Part shown: one piece after another, positions 17,465-24,315 of the stretch
How positions within the stretch are numbered: the first letter of the stretch is position 1
Layout of the letters: every line of letters starts with the position of its first letter
Assembly (NCBI GenBank): GCA_024653205.1
Contig: JANLFO010000007.1
Span: 1 to 64,000 of the forward strand
Origin: Clostridia bacterium
GTDB lineage: Bacteria > Bacillota > DSM-521 > Neomoorellales > SLTJ01
DNA: 64,000 nucleotides
Reading direction: 5' to 3'
The notes under the pieces: generated by a model
The model's input: only the letters and a program-made list of their open reading frames with translations
Databases searched by the model: none
Told to the model about the DNA's origin: nothing
Made by a program: the position numbers and the translations under genes

Positions 17465-18193
17465 GTGATTGTGATAGTTCGGGGCCGTCACCTGCGGATA
17501 GTGCTGGCGGTAATCCTGGTCCTGATCCTGCTGGGTGTGTGGAGGTGGGCGAGGAGGGAGGAGAGTTTCCCTGTCTTTTCCTGGCTTCTGGCCGGCCGCC
17601 GGGTGGTGGTGGATCCCGGCCACGGCGGGGTAGATCCCGGGGCGGTCGGGCCGGCAGGAACCAGGGAAAAGGACGTAACCCTGGCCATCAGCCTTCGTTT
17701 GCGGGACCTCTTGGCCCAGGCCGGAGCGGCGGTAGTGATGACCCGGGAGACGGATGTGGATCTGGGCAGCCCCGGGAAAAGCCTCGGTGCCCGAAAGCGG
17801 GAGGACCTGGACCGCCGCATCGCCATTGCCCGCGAGCATGAAGCGGAAATCTATCTGGGCATTCAGGCCAACGCCTTCGGTACGCGGTGGAGGGGTGCCC
17901 AGACCTTCTACCACCCTTCTTCGGAGGAGGGCCGTCTCCTGGCCGAAGCCATCCAGGCCGAACTCATCCGCATCCTGGGCAACACCAATCGTCGGGCCAA
18001 GTCACTGGAATTATACCTGCTCCGCAATCTCACCGTACCCGCGGCGGTAATCGTAGAAGTGGGCTTTTTGTCCAATCCGGAGGAGGAAAGACTGCTGAAC
18101 GATCCATACTATCAGCAGAAGGTAGCCCTGGCCGTGTACAGCGGAGTAATCCGGTATCTTGCCGGCCGGGTGCCGGAAGGTTCTAGCCCGTGA
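17465..18193 (+). CDS. cwlD: N-acetylmuramoyl-L-alanine amidase, CwlD-like
   Basis: This is an Amidase_3 zinc hydrolase that cleaves the amide bond between muramic acid and the stem peptide. CwlD makes muramic delta-lactam in spore cortex. One membrane anchor lies at residues 9-28. The catalytic core has VVVDPGHGGVDPGAVG (zinc His), TRETDVDL and EVGFLSNPEEE (catalytic Glu). At 242 residues it matches CwlD length. The rpsI-cwlD order is frequent in spore-forming Firmicutes, which supports this identity and suggests sporulation ability. Start GTG. Confidence 0.9.
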   Translation: MIVIVRGRHLRIVLAVILVLILLGVWRWARREESFPVFSWLLAGRRVVVDPGHGGVDPGAVGPAGTREKDVTLAISLRLRDLLAQAGAAVVMTRETDVDLGSPGKSLGARKREDLDRRIAIAREHEAEIYLGIQANAFGTRWRGAQTFYHPSSEEGRLLAEAIQAELIRILGNTNRRAKSLELYLLRNLTVPAAVIVEVGFLSNPEEERLLNDPYYQQKVALAVYSGVIRYLAGRVPEGSSP

Positions 18194-18216: not shown

Positions 18217-18747
18217 ATGCGCTACCTTACGGTACGAACGGCTTGGGGTTGGATCGCGCTGGCGGGAAGCGAAAAGGGGCTGGCGGCGCTGGTTCTCCCG
18301 CGGGGAGAAGAAGAAGCGGCTCTGGCCGCCTTACGGAACCGGATTAGGGCCTCTTCCTGGGAAGTGGACCCCAAAGGTTTTGGCGATCTTCCTGGGCGGC
18401 TGGAGGCCTACTTCACCGGGGAGCGCGTGGATTTCGCCGATTCCGCAAGCCTTGACTGGGGGTGTGTTACCGGGTTCCGCCGTCAGGTGTTATCGGCCGT
18501 CAGGCTCATACCTTATGGTCAGACCCGTTCGTATGGCTGGCTGGCGGAGCAGTCCGGTCGCCCCCGCGCCTGGCGGGCGGTGGGACAGGCCCTCAAGGCC
18601 AATCCTTGGCCCGTAATAGTGCCCTGCCACCGCGTGATAGGTAAGTCCGGGGATCTCGGCGGCTTCAGTGAGGGGCGGGAGACCAAGGCCCGCTTGCTGA
18701 TCCTGGAAGGGGCACGGGCAGTCAGGCCCCCGAAGCCGGGAGCGTAG
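18217..18747 (+). CDS. ogt: Methylated-DNA--protein-cysteine methyltransferase
   Basis: This suicide enzyme repairs O6-methylguanine by transferring the methyl group to its own cysteine. The active-site motif VPCHRVIG places the acceptor at about Cys137. It is preceded by the DNA-binding helix-turn-helix (IPYGQTRSYGWLAEQSGRP, about residues 96-114). The Arg finger is in the RAWRAVGQAL stretch. Length is 176 residues from an ATG start. The gap from cwlD is only 23 bases, so they may share a transcript. Confidence 0.94.
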   Translation: MRYLTVRTAWGWIALAGSEKGLAALVLPRGEEEAALAALRNRIRASSWEVDPKGFGDLPGRLEAYFTGERVDFADSASLDWGCVTGFRRQVLSAVRLIPYGQTRSYGWLAEQSGRPRAWRAVGQALKANPWPVIVPCHRVIGKSGDLGGFSEGRETKARLLILEGARAVRPPKPGA

Positions 18748-18807
18748 GGAAGCACCTGGATTATCCTCGCTTTTCCCTGTCAGTCCCGGTTTCACCGAGT
18801 ACCTGAA

Positions 18808-18990
18808 GTCTCACCGGGCACCGAACTCGGCGAGGGCGAGGGCAGAGGCGGGCCGAAGGCCACGGATGGCCGAAGCCGCGCCGGCGCCATGGACGGCGCC
18901 TAAGCGGTGCCTGCGGAACCCGGAAGCCGGAGCCGCAGTTCGGGCGGCGAAGCGAACGGTACGAGGGCGAACCGGGACTGCCGGGACAAA
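18808..18990 (+). repeat. Dispersed GC-rich repeat, copy A
   Basis: This copy lies in the 371-base gap between the methyltransferase gene and the AMMECR1-fusion gene. It aligns by eye with copy B at 20527-20715 over roughly 180 bases. Shared blocks include GGCGAGGGCGAGGG near the left end and GGCGAAGCGA toward the right end. The right third, with GGTACGAGGG and CGAACCGGGA, also resembles copy C at 45515-45620. No convincing gene is seen in the gap. Short open frames here are GC-driven and do not look like proteins. Confidence 0.65.
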
Positions 18991-19118
18991 GAGTGGGGAT
19001 CCGCAGGGGAAGCACTCGTTGCCCGAGCTACCGGCCTGGGGTGGACCGGGGCCGCCGGCGCGAGCGGGAAAGAATGGTCAGGAGACGGGGAATGCCTGAA
19101 CGGCGGAGGTGAAACGGA

Positions 19119-20507
19119 TTGAGCGGCAAGGGTGAGGTAACCGTTGCCTGTTTGGTGCCCCATCCGCCGGTAATGGTACCGGAGGTGGGAGGGAAAGATG
19201 CCAGGGGTGTGGAGAAGACGGTCCGGGCCATGGAGCAGGTGGCGGGCAGGCTCGCGGTCCTGGGCCCGGAGGTCCTGCTTTTCATTACCCCCCACGGTCC
19301 TCTGGCCCGGGATACGGTCTATGTGGCGGCAGAACGGGAGTTGGTGGGTGACCTGGCTGCCTTCGGGGCCCCGGAGGTGGGCTTTCGTTACGGCAACGAT
19401 CTGGAGCTGGCGACCGCCATTCGCGATCGGGCCCGGGCGGTCGGGCTGGCGGTAGAGATGAACCGGCGCTGGACGGGATGGCCCGGACTGGGAGCGGGAC
19501 TGGATCACGGAGTGACCGCCCCGCTTTACTACCTACGCCGCGGCCCGGCCTCCTTCCGTCTGGTAGTACTCACCTATGCCCTCTGGCCGCGGCCTCAACT
19601 GTATCGGCTGGGAGCCGTGATTCGTGAGGCGGTGCAGGCGAGCGGCCGAAGGGTGGCAGTGGTTGCCAGCGGGGACCTGTCGCACCGATTATTGCCCGGG
19701 GCTCCGGCCGGCTACGATCCGGAGGGTAAAGAGTTCGACCGCCGGCTACGCGAACTTCTGGAGCGAGGGCAGCTCTACGAGATAATCACTCTATCGGAAG
19801 AGTGGGCCGAAAGGGCCGGAGAGTGCGGGTGGCGCTCGCTGGTTGTTGCCCTGGGAGCCCTGGACGGCGTAAGGGTCAGGACCGAGGTGCTGTCCTACGA
19901 AGGCCCGTTTGGGGTGGGTTACCTGGTGGCCCTGATGGAGCCGGGAGAAGAAGACCCGGAGCGCTGTCTCCTGGGGCGCCTATCGGTTTCTGCAGAGGAG
20001 GGTTCCTGGCCGGTGCGCCTGGCGCGGCAGAGCCTGGAAGCCTACGTCCGGGAAGGCCGCCTTATCAAGCTCCCCCATCCCCTGCCGGCGGAGCTGGCGC
20101 GGCCGGCGGCGGCTTTTGTCTCCCTGAAGAAGCACGGGCAGTTACGGGGATGCATAGGTACCATTCGGCCTACGCGGCCGAGCCTGGCGGAGGAGATCAT
20201 CGTCAACGCCATAAGCGCCGGCACGCGGGATCCTCGCTTTGAACCCGTGCGGCCGGACGAGCTTTCCGAGCTAACCTACTCAGTCGATGTGTTGGGCAAA
20301 CCGGAGCCGGTAAAAGGACTCGAAGAACTCGATCCGAAGCGCTTCGGCGTAATAGTGCGCAAGGATTGGCGCACGGGGGTGTTACTGCCCGATCTGGAAG
20401 GTGTGGACACCGTGGAAGAGCAGCTTCGCATTGCCAAGCTGAAGGCGGGCATCGGGCCGGAGGAAGACTGCATCGTAGAGCGTTTTGAGGTAAAGAGGTA
20501 CTACTGA
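19119..20507 (+). CDS. amrA: Memo-like/AMMECR1 fusion (AmmeMemoRadiSam system protein A)
   Basis: Residues 1 to about 265 form a LigB/Memo-like class III dioxygenase-type domain (LVPHPPVMVPEVGG, TPHGPLARDTVY, LDHGVTAPLYYL, VVASGDLSHRL). Residues about 285-462 form an AMMECR1 domain with the signature KKHGQLRGCIGTIRPTRPSL and ISAGTRDPRF. The substrate is unknown. In many bacteria and archaea these two domains occur with a dedicated radical SAM enzyme, which is the next gene here. The TTG start follows a strong GGAGGTGA site at seven bases. Whether the Memo domain is catalytic cannot be told from the sequence. Confidence 0.9.
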   Translation: MSGKGEVTVACLVPHPPVMVPEVGGKDARGVEKTVRAMEQVAGRLAVLGPEVLLFITPHGPLARDTVYVAAERELVGDLAAFGAPEVGFRYGNDLELATAIRDRARAVGLAVEMNRRWTGWPGLGAGLDHGVTAPLYYLRRGPASFRLVVLTYALWPRPQLYRLGAVIREAVQASGRRVAVVASGDLSHRLLPGAPAGYDPEGKEFDRRLRELLERGQLYEIITLSEEWAERAGECGWRSLVVALGALDGVRVRTEVLSYEGPFGVGYLVALMEPGEEDPERCLLGRLSVSAEEGSWPVRLARQSLEAYVREGRLIKLPHPLPAELARPAAAFVSLKKHGQLRGCIGTIRPTRPSLAEEIIVNAISAGTRDPRFEPVRPDELSELTYSVDVLGKPEPVKGLEELDPKRFGVIVRKDWRTGVLLPDLEGVDTVEEQLRIAKLKAGIGPEEDCIVERFEVKRYY

Positions 20508-20526
20508 GATTTGGGCTGCGCCACTA

Positions 20527-20715
20527 AGGCTTCGCCGGGCACTGAGCTTGGCGAGGGCGAGGGTGGAGGGGGGCCGCTAGGCTTCTGAATGGCGAAGCTG
20601 CGCCGGTGCCGAGGACGGTTTCTTTCGCGGGGAGCGCGCCGGGAGCCCGAAGCGTAAGGCTGTTCGGTTGGCGAAGCGACCGGCGCGAGGGGGAATCCGG
20701 GTGCCGGGGAGCAAA
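20527..20715 (+). repeat. Dispersed GC-rich repeat, copy B
   Basis: This copy fills the 234-base space between the AMMECR1-fusion gene and the radical SAM gene. It aligns with copy A at 18808-18990 in the same orientation, with scattered substitutions and small gaps. The most similar parts are GGCGAGGGCGAGGG and GGCGAAGCGA. Its divergence from A suggests an old element. No open frame with protein character is seen in it. Confidence 0.65.
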
Positions 20716-20765
20716 CTGAGATAGCTCAGAAGGGACGGGACTTGATTTGGGGAGCGAGAGGCGTA

Positions 20766-21776
20766 ATGCAGGAAGCGGCCTTCTACGAAAAGCTGGATGA
20801 GGGCCGGGTGCGCTGCGGGCTCTGTCCCCACCGCTGTGTGCTTGCACCCGGCAAGAAGGGTATTTGCGGCGTGAGGGAGAATCACGGAGGCAGGCTTTAC
20901 ACCCTCAACTATGCCCGGGTATCCTCCTGGGGCTTTGACCCGGTGGAGAAAAAACCGCTGTATCATTTCTGTCCGGGCACGGTCGTTTTCTCCTTGGGAA
21001 CCGTGGGCTGCAATTTTCATTGCGAGTTCTGCCAAAACTGGGAGATCGCCCGCGGCGATGTAGGAGCAACTTTCGAGCTCGGCGTCGAGGCGCTGATAGA
21101 GGTGCTGACGCGCCAGGCTCCCCCTCACTGCGTGGGGGTGGCCTACACTTACTCCGAGCCCTCGGTGTGGTACGAGTACGTGCTGGCCGCCAGCCGCGGG
21201 GTGAGGGAGAAGGGCTACCGGAACGTCCTGGTGACCAACGGTTTTATCAATCCCGAGCCTTTGGCGCAGTTGTTGCCCTACGTGGATGCTCTGAACATAG
21301 ACGTTAAGAGTTTCACCGACAGCTTCTACCGCCGGGTAGTACACGGCGAACGGGAGCCGGTACTGCGCACGGCAATCCAGGCCAAGGAAGCCGGGTGTCA
21401 TGTAGAAATTACCACCTTGCTGGTCCCGGGTCTAAACGATGGCCGGGAGGAACTGGAACAACTGGTTGACTGGATAGCCACGCATCTGGGATCGGATACC
21501 CCTCTTCACTTCTCCCGCTACTTTCCGCATTACCGGCTCCGCCTGCCGCCTACGCCCGTCGAAACCCTGCGGCGGGCCCGGGAACTGGCCCGCCGCAAGC
21601 TCTCCTTCGTATATCTGGGAAACGTGCCGGACGCCGAAGCCTCCACCACCTATTGCCCGGGTTGCGGTCGGCCGGTAGTGGAGCGCCTGGGTTACCGGGT
21701 GAGCAGTTCGGGCCTGGCCGACGGGCGCTGTCGCTATTGCGGCCGGAGGCTCCCTTTTGTGCTTGAGCCGAACTAG
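20766..21776 (+). CDS. amrS: AmmeMemoRadiSam system radical SAM enzyme
   Basis: This radical SAM protein has the 4Fe-4S motif CNFHCEFC (C-x3-C-x2-C) near residue 80. Further cysteines lie in CGLCPHRC near residue 17, and a C-terminal zinc-ribbon-like part has CPGCGRP and CRYCGRR. The partner families AMMECR1 and Memo are in the preceding gene, so the module is complete in two genes. The reaction is not known. ATG 20766 gives the family-like start MQEAAFYEKL and 336 residues. A TTG at 20742 would add eight. The stop overlaps the stop of the convergent gene. Confidence 0.92.
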   Translation: MQEAAFYEKLDEGRVRCGLCPHRCVLAPGKKGICGVRENHGGRLYTLNYARVSSWGFDPVEKKPLYHFCPGTVVFSLGTVGCNFHCEFCQNWEIARGDVGATFELGVEALIEVLTRQAPPHCVGVAYTYSEPSVWYEYVLAASRGVREKGYRNVLVTNGFINPEPLAQLLPYVDALNIDVKSFTDSFYRRVVHGEREPVLRTAIQAKEAGCHVEITTLLVPGLNDGREELEQLVDWIATHLGSDTPLHFSRYFPHYRLRLPPTPVETLRRARELARRKLSFVYLGNVPDAEASTTYCPGCGRPVVERLGYRVSSSGLADGRCRYCGRRLPFVLEPN

Positions 21777-22861
21777 CAGGGAACCACCAGGGGTACTGCG
21801 GCCTCTTCTTTTCCTTCCTCCAGCCGACCGGCGGTCTCCACGGCCAACCGCGACAGCAGGTAGGCCAAGAGGGATTCCGCTCCCTGGTTGGGGTTCGGGC
21901 CGTGAGGGGTCAGACCGTCGCAGCAGCCTCCGGACTCGCAATCGTAGAGGGCAACTCCCAGTTCGTTCTGGCCCAGAAACCAGCCAAAGGACTTCTCGGC
22001 CAGGCGCAGGTATTCGCGCTCCCGGCTTACCCAGTAGGCCAGGGTATAGGCCAGAACCAGGCAGCCCGCATCCTCGGGCTGCTCGTCAAAAGGTGCCGGT
22101 CGGGAATCTCTGAAGTACCAGCCTTTATTCCCCACCAGCTTCAGGTGCCCGTTGGCCAGGTGAAGACCGGTCAGAAAATCGAGTGCCCGCACGGCGGTCT
22201 GCCAGTAGAGCCGGTGCCCGGTTATCCGGTAGGCCATCACCAGGGCGGCGGGCAGGATGGCGTTGGAGTAGGTTAGGTAGGGTTCAAACCATTGCCACTC
22301 CCGGGTCTGTTCCCGCTCCAGGGCAGCCGGGAACCAATCGGCCAGAAGGCAAATCAAGCCGCGGATTTGCTCCGAAGGGAACGCCGAATAATAATACCCC
22401 AGGCCCAGGAGGGCAAAAGCTTTGGCCCGGGGATAGGTCAGGCCGGCCGACCAGGGAAGGGCCCTATCCAGCATGTCCTTGGCCGCCCGCCCCAGGTAGT
22501 GCTCGGGGAGGGAGGCGGCCGCGTATCCCAGGGCCCAAAGCGCCCGGCCGAAAGCATCCTCCGAGCCCTCTTCGTCCAGGAAGCACCGGGTATAGTCTAC
22601 GAAGTTGTGCCACTTGCCGTCCGGCCTTTGCGCGTAGCGGAGAAAACCCAGGTAGCTTTCTGCCAGTTCCAGAGCCTCCGGCGCCTGGAGATGCTGATAG
22701 ACTTGAAGGGCGGCCAGCAGGGCCCGGGCGTTGTCGTCGGTGGTGTAGCCGGTCCGGTAGTCGGGCAGGGCGTAGACCGCGTGCTGAATTATGCCCGTCC
22801 TGTCGGTGAGGCGGCGCAAGTGGTTCAGGTTCAGATCGGGATAGACTCCGTTTCTCACCAT
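21773..22861 (-). CDS. Six-hairpin-glycosidase-like conserved protein paired with GT4
   Basis: This 362-residue protein is rich in helices with repeated aromatic patterns: YRTGYTTDDNARALLAALQV, SEDAFGRALWALGYA, FEPYLTYSNAILPAAL and a C-terminal YDCESGGCCDGLTPHG with NQGAESLLAYLLSRLA. It resembles the (alpha/alpha)6 proteins often fused or adjacent to family 4 glycosyltransferases. The exact activity is unknown, and glycan processing is inference. The ATG at 22861 lies after GGAGGTGGGC. It is 38 bases downstream of the GT4 gene and converges on amrS, sharing a CTAG at the stops. Confidence 0.8.
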   Translation of the reverse strand: MVRNGVYPDLNLNHLRRLTDRTGIIQHAVYALPDYRTGYTTDDNARALLAALQVYQHLQAPEALELAESYLGFLRYAQRPDGKWHNFVDYTRCFLDEEGSEDAFGRALWALGYAAASLPEHYLGRAAKDMLDRALPWSAGLTYPRAKAFALLGLGYYYSAFPSEQIRGLICLLADWFPAALEREQTREWQWFEPYLTYSNAILPAALVMAYRITGHRLYWQTAVRALDFLTGLHLANGHLKLVGNKGWYFRDSRPAPFDEQPEDAGCLVLAYTLAYWVSREREYLRLAEKSFGWFLGQNELGVALYDCESGGCCDGLTPHGPNPNQGAESLLAYLLSRLAVETAGRLEEGKEEAAVPLVVPC

Positions 22862-22899
22862 GCCCACCTCCCTAGCCTTGATGGTGGTCCTCAAGGCGT

Positions 22900-24090
22900 T
22901 CAGCTTGTGGCCTGACCTTCTAGCCCCGGCGCCGCCCGCTGGGCTGTGGCCACCACTTCGTGGAACAGGTCCATGTAGGCCTCGGCTACGCGGGGCCAGG
23001 TCATTTGCCGGCCGAATTCCCGGGCCGCGCGGCTCAGGGCCGCAGTCTTGGCGGGCTGAGACAAGACCTCTTCCAGGGCCAGGCCTAAAGCCTGGGCATC
23101 GGCGAAGGGAACCAGGATTCCCCGGCCGCCGGCCAGCATTTCCTGGGCGTAAATGTACGGCGTGGAGATGACGGTCTTGCCCAGGCATACGGCATAGGCC
23201 AGGGTGCCGCTGGAGATCTGCTGGGGCTCCAGGTAGGGTGTGAGATAAATGTCAGTCATATGCAGATAAGTCAAGAGTTCCTCCTGGCTCAGGTAGGAGT
23301 CTACGAAGTGCACATGATCCTCCAGGCCGAGCGCCATCACCAGATCCTTTAGCTTGCTCCTGTAGGTCTCGCCTTCCCGGCGCCGCACCTCGGGATGGGT
23401 CTGGCCCAGAACCAGGTAGAGCACCTCCGGGTGCTTGGCCACCACCGGCGGGAGGGCCTTCAGGGCGTATTCTATGCCCTTGCCCGGGTGCAGCAGCCCG
23501 AAAGTGCAGAGCAGTTTTCGGTCCTGCCAGCCGTAGCGCTTCCTTAGTTCGGAAGCGTCGGGCAGCTCCAATACCGGTACCCCGTGGTGGATTACGTGTA
23601 TCTTGGCCGGCGCGATCTTGTACACCTGGGTGAGTATTTCCTTACCCTTGTGGGCCAGCACTACCACGGCGGCGCTGTGGGCGGCGATCTCCTGCACCAG
23701 GGCTTTCCGGTGGGAATCCACGTTGGGGAGTACGGTATGGAAGGTGGTTACCACCGGCTTGCGCAGGTGGCTCAACAGGGAAAGCAGGTAGTGGCCGTTG
23801 GTTCCGCCGAAGATGCCGAATTCGTGCTGCACTACCACTACATCCACTCTGCTGCGGTTGAGGAAGTTGGCTGCTTGGACATACGAAGAACGCTCTTCCT
23901 GAACCAGAATCTGTTTCACCACCGGGGGATAGGTCAAGTCTTGCCCTCGGTGATTGACGGCCACTACCACCGAGGGCGCCAGTCGGCCCGAAGCGTCTAT
24001 GGCCGTGGTCAGATCCCAGGTAAACGTAGCCAACCCGCACTGACGAGGAGGAAAGGTGCTGACGTAGGCAACTTCCAGTCTGGTTGTCAA
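22900..24090 (-). CDS. Family 4 glycosyltransferase
   Basis: This is a retaining GT-B glycosyltransferase. The N-terminal domain has VAYVSTFPPRQCGLATFTWD and HEFGIFGGTNGHYLLSLL. The C-terminal nucleotide-sugar domain has FGLLHPGKGIEYALKALP and the acceptor-side stretch LTPYLEPQQISSGTLAYAV. The family and the GDP-mannose genes next door make mannosyl transfer likely, but this is inference. There is a GTG at 24099, but it overlaps the AGGAGGT ribosome binding site. TTG 24090 has correct spacing, so 396 residues is preferred. It is the first gene of the minus-strand operon. Confidence 0.88.
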   Translation of the reverse strand: MTTRLEVAYVSTFPPRQCGLATFTWDLTTAIDASGRLAPSVVVAVNHRGQDLTYPPVVKQILVQEERSSYVQAANFLNRSRVDVVVVQHEFGIFGGTNGHYLLSLLSHLRKPVVTTFHTVLPNVDSHRKALVQEIAAHSAAVVVLAHKGKEILTQVYKIAPAKIHVIHHGVPVLELPDASELRKRYGWQDRKLLCTFGLLHPGKGIEYALKALPPVVAKHPEVLYLVLGQTHPEVRRREGETYRSKLKDLVMALGLEDHVHFVDSYLSQEELLTYLHMTDIYLTPYLEPQQISSGTLAYAVCLGKTVISTPYIYAQEMLAGGRGILVPFADAQALGLALEEVLSQPAKTAALSRAAREFGRQMTWPRVAEAYMDLFHEVVATAQRAAPGLEGQATS

Positions 24091-24315
24091 CCGGGCCACC
24101 TCCTTACTTATTATTCGCCGGAAGACGGTAAACTAGTCCCAACGCCAGGCTAACCGGCAAGAGCGAGAACGAAGATAGGTCGGATAGGCAAAACTGTACT
24201 AGGATATGCTGATGGCGGAGATATTATGACCTCGTTCCCGCCGGCCGGCCTTGCGCTACGTGAGCACCCTTTCAGGCTAACCGGTACGGGTTTGGTACCC
24301 TCGGCTGCTAGCTCT
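24091..24315 (-). promoter_or_regulatory. Long, probably structured 5' leader of the GT4 operon
   Basis: From the predicted transcription start near 24315 to the GT4 start there are about 225 untranslated bases. They contain several possible stems, such as GGTAC/GTACC around a CAAACCC loop. Two copies of the 12-mer CAGGCTAACCGG (+ strand spelling) lie at 24146-24157 and 24273-24284. I could not match it to a known riboswitch. No open frame with protein character is seen. This makes up about half of the 430-base intergenic region. Confidence 0.5.

Follow-up and report, generated by a model that had tools for sequence, protein, structure and literature searches.

The families AMMECR1, Memo and a dedicated radical SAM enzyme are grouped in NCBIfam as the AmmeMemoRadiSam system (TIGR04335, TIGR04336 and TIGR04337), and PMC7159879 refers to Burroughs et al. 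2019 for 'Memo-Ammecr1 systems'. The human relative MEMO1 binds metal through H49, H81 and C244, which occupy the His-His-Glu (HHE) positions of the extradiol dioxygenases, with C244 in the place of the Glu (PMC11081632). Within the 64,000-nucleotide stretch of clostridial DNA analysed here (the window), two adjacent genes encode an AMMECR1 component and a radical SAM enzyme, each above cut-off, as in the AmmeMemoRadiSam system; unlike in that system, the B component is of LigB/TK2203 type, is fused to AMMECR1 and falls under the Memo cut-off. An earlier note on this DNA had proposed the pair as an undescribed biochemical system, a description superseded by the family names and literature above; the module is real but an ordinary example of an enzyme set that is widespread among anaerobes.

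The same note had reported repeats before and between the two genes, which are real and part of a genome-wide family. Their only neighbour in Rfam is the TwoAYGGAY RNA of Clostridia (RF01731), a small RNA predicted to bind CsrA given its two GGA hairpins (PMC4333381). As in TwoAYGGAY RNA, the repeats present two hairpins with AYGGAY-type loops within a junction, but they are dispersed in at least 75 copies and carry long inverted ends. The locus is read, with a probability of roughly 0.6, as two unrelated things: a standard AmmeMemoRadiSam operon, and independent insertions of a multi-copy folded-RNA element.

The fusion protein and its radical SAM partner

Both open reading frames stand where they had first been placed. 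The fusion gene (19,119–20,507, + strand) encodes 462 residues from a TTG start, with GGAGG at 19,105–19,109, nine bases 5′ of it, and matches both PF02900 and PF01871 above cut-off. Residues 10–270 (19,146–19,928) form a LigB/TK2203-like domain (PF02900, 149.5 bits; cut-off 26.3), and residues 299–460 (20,013–20,498) an AMMECR1 domain (PF01871, 156.8 bits; TIGR04335, 140.4 bits against a cut-off of 99) that retains the invariant LRGCIG motif with C345. The protein had been described as a Memo/LigB-like domain joined to AMMECR1, of which the LigB and AMMECR1 parts hold and the Memo part does not: the N-terminal domain scores 19.9–20.9 bits with TIGR04336 (cut-off 26), no further match to that model occurs anywhere in this genome, and Pfam Memo (PF01875) does not match the window protein at E 0.001, its match to an unfused orthologue (L039) being weak (29.8 bits; cut-off 27). 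TIGR04336 is just passed in 32 of the 61 genomes, mostly by the same kind of fusion, so that the B domain is borderline for Memo. One genome (G043) carries a TIGR04336 match of 116 bits (C12:27721-28434) besides its LigB–AMMECR1 fusion (G043:C13).

Structural comparison places the domain likewise. The nearest solved sequence to the fusion protein, AMMECR1 entries aside, is TK2203, which is also the top structural match (5hee, TMt 0.88) of an AlphaFold (AF2) model of the fusion (pLDDT 88.9, pTM 0.65); 2-aminophenol 1,6-dioxygenase follows with TMt 0.70–0.80, and the second half of the model matches PH0010 (0.77). Human MEMO1 belongs to the same superfamily as the window LigB domain but reaches a TMt of only 0.55, and its third ligand position holds Cys where the window protein has Glu. 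The N-terminal domain is thus LigB-type, resembling TK2203 and the extradiol dioxygenases, and not a canonical Memo. With TK2203 and the class III extradiol dioxygenases (2-aminophenol 1,6-dioxygenase, LigAB, DesB) it shares fold, HHE ligands and catalytic His; it differs from them in its fusion to AMMECR1, its radical SAM partner and its occurrence in anaerobes. H15, H59, H130, D186, H189, C236 and E261 are invariant in all 63 LigB sequences, fused or separate, and motif and alignment make H15/H59/E261 a candidate 2-His-1-Glu metal site with H189 as candidate catalytic His. Loss of key cysteines or metal ligands upon alignment to the families had been named as grounds for doubting the module; all are kept.

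The radical SAM gene (20,766–21,776, + strand; 336 residues from ATG 20,766) scores 338 bits with TIGR04337 (cut-off 220), the only copy above cut-off in this genome, and bears the CNFHCEFC motif and extra cysteine clusters that had been noted in it. Translation probably starts at ATG 20,766 and not at TTG 20,742, since most homologues align from residue 9 onward and GGGGAG stands at 20,749–20,754, 11 bases before the ATG. The radical SAM motif CNFHCEFC (C90, C94, C97; 21,009–21,032) is present in 76 of 76 sequences. An N-terminal Cys4 set (C25, C28, C32, C42; 20,814–20,867), a probable auxiliary Fe–S or metal site, is kept in 75 of them, the lone exception being a sequence cut by a contig end. 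A zinc-ribbon-like C-terminal Cys4 set (C305, C308, C330, C333; 21,654–21,740) is variable, complete in 66, partial in 2 and absent from 8, and the ribbon is accordingly dispensable to the family. A second radical SAM enzyme in this genome (G000:C8:12502-13467; L002, L109) is related to TIGR04337 at 160 bits, below cut-off; it sits among Fe/B12-type ABC transporter genes and was rejected as part of the module.

Distribution, gene neighbourhood and proposed chemistry

The fusion protein was matched in 50 of 61 relatives, and in 52 of 53 loci the radical SAM gene lies directly downstream on the same strand, bearing out the co-occurrence of AMMECR1, Memo-like and radical SAM components that had been noted for this triad. 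A LigB-type B component fused to AMMECR1 is the usual state in these relatives, not a peculiarity of this genome. LigB and AMMECR1 are two adjacent ORFs in Sporomusa, Pelosinus, Halanaerobiales and spirochaetes; in the first three of these groups the chromosomal location is unchanged as well, and the continued adjacency of the two parts when split supports a joint function. Two loci from Halanaerobiales carry, ∼2 kb 3′ of the fusion, a phosphoglucomutase/phosphomannomutase-like gene (L042, 12,333–13,589; L044, 11,445–12,716).

Beyond the phylum, the radical SAM enzyme accompanies a canonical Memo in seven of the eight non-archaeal genomes tested and in the archaeal one, the genomes with both including Chloroflexi, Elusimicrobia and archaea. 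An elusimicrobial gene (L116:49-1497) fuses Memo (PF01875) to AMMECR1, the clostridial architecture with the other B domain. Given that the radical SAM enzyme co-occurs with canonical Memo and that Memo–AMMECR1 fusions exist, LigB-type and Memo-type domains seem, from co-occurrence, to occupy the same slot. That Memo and a LigB-type HHE metal domain can each take this slot suggests metal chemistry, rather than the specifics of MEMO1, as the shared function of this widespread anaerobe enzyme set.

In the 46 loci whose contigs reach far enough upstream, cwlD precedes the module in the same orientation in 37, often within 150 nt, while rpsI lies upstream in 25 of the 46, rplM in 23, truA in 21 and rpoA in 16; the conserved neighbourhood is rpoA-truA-rplM-rpsI-cwlD, with the module at the tail of the cluster. 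In the window, the conserved cwlD amidase gene (17,465–18,193, + strand) and ogt, encoding a methylguanine methyltransferase (18,217–18,747, + strand; PF01035), lie upstream, the latter an upstream neighbour in only 4 of the 46 loci. The frequency and closeness of cwlD could be taken to mean that the module has a role, together with cwlD, in sporulation or in the cortex; this is very unlikely, as rpsI directly precedes the module, without cwlD, in two Halanaerobiales loci (L042, L044), and the radical SAM–Memo pair extends to Chloroflexi, Elusimicrobia and archaea.

Downstream, the earlier note had placed the module beside a glycosyltransferase operon ending on the same CTAG. The shared CTAG (21,773–21,776) is real, joining the end of the radical SAM gene to a gene of the opposite strand, but genes that meet in this way are convergent and do not form one operon. 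The convergent neighbour, a six-hairpin-like ORF outside the module (21,773–23,188, − strand; weak PF07944, 18.4 bits), overlaps as listed the GT4 glycosyltransferase gene (22,900–24,099, − strand; PF00534), likewise outside it, and its true start is probably near 22,870. A role of the module in glycan synthesis alongside the GT4, six-hairpin and nucleotide-sugar genes, which had been suggested from position and for which comparison of neighbourhoods had been named as the check, is extremely improbable: the genes abut at the CTAG and recur in the same order, but only in L035, the contig closest to this one (Moorellales MAG-69), and they lie on opposite strands, while neither GT4 nor six-hairpin gene was found at any of 47 relative loci with at least 6 kb of downstream sequence, and both are missing at the module locus of a genome of the same family (G002).

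Built on directly observed domains, invariant residues, gene pairing and synteny, the most likely account of the module is an anaerobic modification system, the catalytic steps and substrate of which we infer. The radical SAM protein would generate a 5′-deoxyadenosyl radical at CNFHCEFC, and the fusion protein would offer a mononuclear metal site (H15/H59/E261) with H189 as general base and C345 of LRGCIG as a nucleophilic or substrate-binding cysteine, the two proteins acting on one substrate; the LigB fold would then serve non-oxidative metal chemistry. Proposals made for the Memo superfamily in a JBC paper of 2019 were reportedly nucleobase or isoprenoid modification. The full HHE triad and catalytic His, together with extradiol dioxygenases as the best-matching folds, would also suit an oxygen-using extradiol dioxygenase, for example one scavenging oxygen or aromatics. 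Such an activity, as predicted from motifs and folds, is nonetheless quite unlikely: AMMECR1 (PF01871) marks anaerobes (50.7%, versus 3.4% of aerobes; PMC13386939), which makes an oxygen-dependent reaction improbable, the partner belongs to the oxygen-sensitive class of radical SAM enzymes, and dioxygenase activity could not be detected in the relative MEMO1 (PMC11081632).

For the modification system favoured here, a substrate in or near translation, such as an RNA base or a translation protein, is the preferred, if doubtful, suggestion, to which the ribosomal-gene synteny at this locus and the deoxyhypusine synthase gene beside Memo in Thermoplasmatales point weakly; both adjacencies could be relics of gene order. 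The archaeal Memo gene adjoins that for deoxyhypusine synthase in Thermoplasmatales and their relatives (L112, L121, L123), with ORFs of comparable size at further loci, and an archaeal placement of Memo beside rpl13-rps9 was unsupported in Thermoplasmatales.

A dispersed repeat with two GGA-loop hairpins

The first repeat copy lies upstream of the fusion gene (18,781–18,982, + strand; R1, 70.1 bits; 88% to the consensus), with a core three-way junction at 18,844–18,919, loops ACGGAT and ATGGAC, and outer inverted arms at approximately 18,765–18,803 and 18,958–18,996. The second, diverged copy lies between the module genes (20,524–20,735, + strand; R1, 59.7 bits) and has decayed, its core (20,565–20,644) no longer forming the junction. 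This genome of 2.46 Mb holds at least 75 copies (from 77 scored candidates), and 19 of the 61 genomes screened carry the element, for example with 50 copies in G014, 43 in G009, 32 in G003 and at least 27 in G001. A blastn search of plasmids and an exact-pattern search of viral contigs yielded no copies. Both module gaps lack the repeat in the sister genome G001 and in G002, as does the fusion–radical SAM gap in G003; the window copies are thus lineage-specific and say nothing about the module. One further copy in this genome is directly abutted by a glmS ribozyme on the opposite strand (L165:1372-1519, G000:C23; 82.8 bits).

The consensus is a long near-palindrome of approximately 206 nt, up to 260 nt with outer arms, and folds at −135 kcal/mol (206 nt; z −8.1), with a core formed by a three-way junction bearing two ANGGAN-type hairpins. 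Over 89 distinct repeat cores, 97.1% of core pairs are kept, and both GGA loops form in 70 of the 89 cores folded, versus 4.5% of shuffles. The covariation score of the core is 0.319, against 0.095 ± 0.008 for shuffled alignments and at most 0.086 for slid controls, a comparison that leans in the structure's favour as the alignment was fitted to it. Whole sides of pairs are swapped (for example, C-G 47 to G-C 38), which is hard to explain without a conserved structure. A strong stem and an intergenic position, with the bias of orientation described below, could be accounted for by transcription terminators or attenuators; this is improbable, there being no evident U-run 3′ of the stem in the copies inspected and no need for two conserved GGA loops in termination.

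A DNA-level element of MITE or REP-like type, free of RNA function, would derive the hairpins and base-pair changes from palindrome maintenance or transposition. The long near-palindrome, the dispersed copies and the empty sites in relatives fit this account, as does a terminal inverted repeat, CTGAGTTATCCCC.../...GGGGATAACTCAG, that is common to copies from different genomes (L286, L153 and others), suggesting mobilisation by a transposase. Against a function confined to DNA, copies in gaps between same-direction genes are in sense orientation 48 times and antisense 19 times (p = 5e-4, three genomes, as counted with a home-made gene caller), although in this genome alone the bias (23:13) is not significant (p = 0.13). 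In the long repeat form G-U pairs outnumber A-C mismatches by 74 to 14, which favours an RNA on the sense strand, though the fold was picked on that same strand, and the GGA loops, in this genome mostly A(C/T)GGA(C/T/A), are conserved across genera while the stems vary. Purely DNA-level elements are, on this evidence, somewhat unlikely, and the repeats are best read as a dispersed RNA element, possibly CsrA-binding.

ANGGAN-type hairpin loops are the sequence bound by CsrA/RsmA, and CsrA is encoded in this genome. A csrA gene is present in 12 of 13 genomes with repeat copies versus 4 of 8 without (p = 0.047, kinship ignored); the exception, G001, has at least 27 copies and no csrA match in a fragmented assembly. 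Rfam yields nothing at gathering level in the window: RF01731 scores 26.4 bits against a gathering threshold of 43, so that by score the repeat is not a member, and in 18 other loci RF01731 matched nothing at E 0.5. The family is apparently an undescribed, many-copy, RNA-like one. That the repeats are transcribed and bind CsrA, a prediction from loops and orientation, is a possibility falling a little short of an even chance; copies transcribed within untranslated regions (UTRs) could recruit or titrate the protein.

More broadly, and tentatively, Clostridia of the Moorellales and their relatives may carry a self-dispersing, intergenic, twin-GGA three-way-junction RNA that would constitute a distributed CsrA-recruiting or -titrating network in UTRs. 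The repeats are the more novel part of the locus by comparison with the module: if this proposal is true, their tens of copies per genome would represent a mobile riboregulator outside Gammaproteobacteria, and confirmation of such a high-copy RNA family would tie the spread of a mobile element in Firmicutes to a global regulator of translation.
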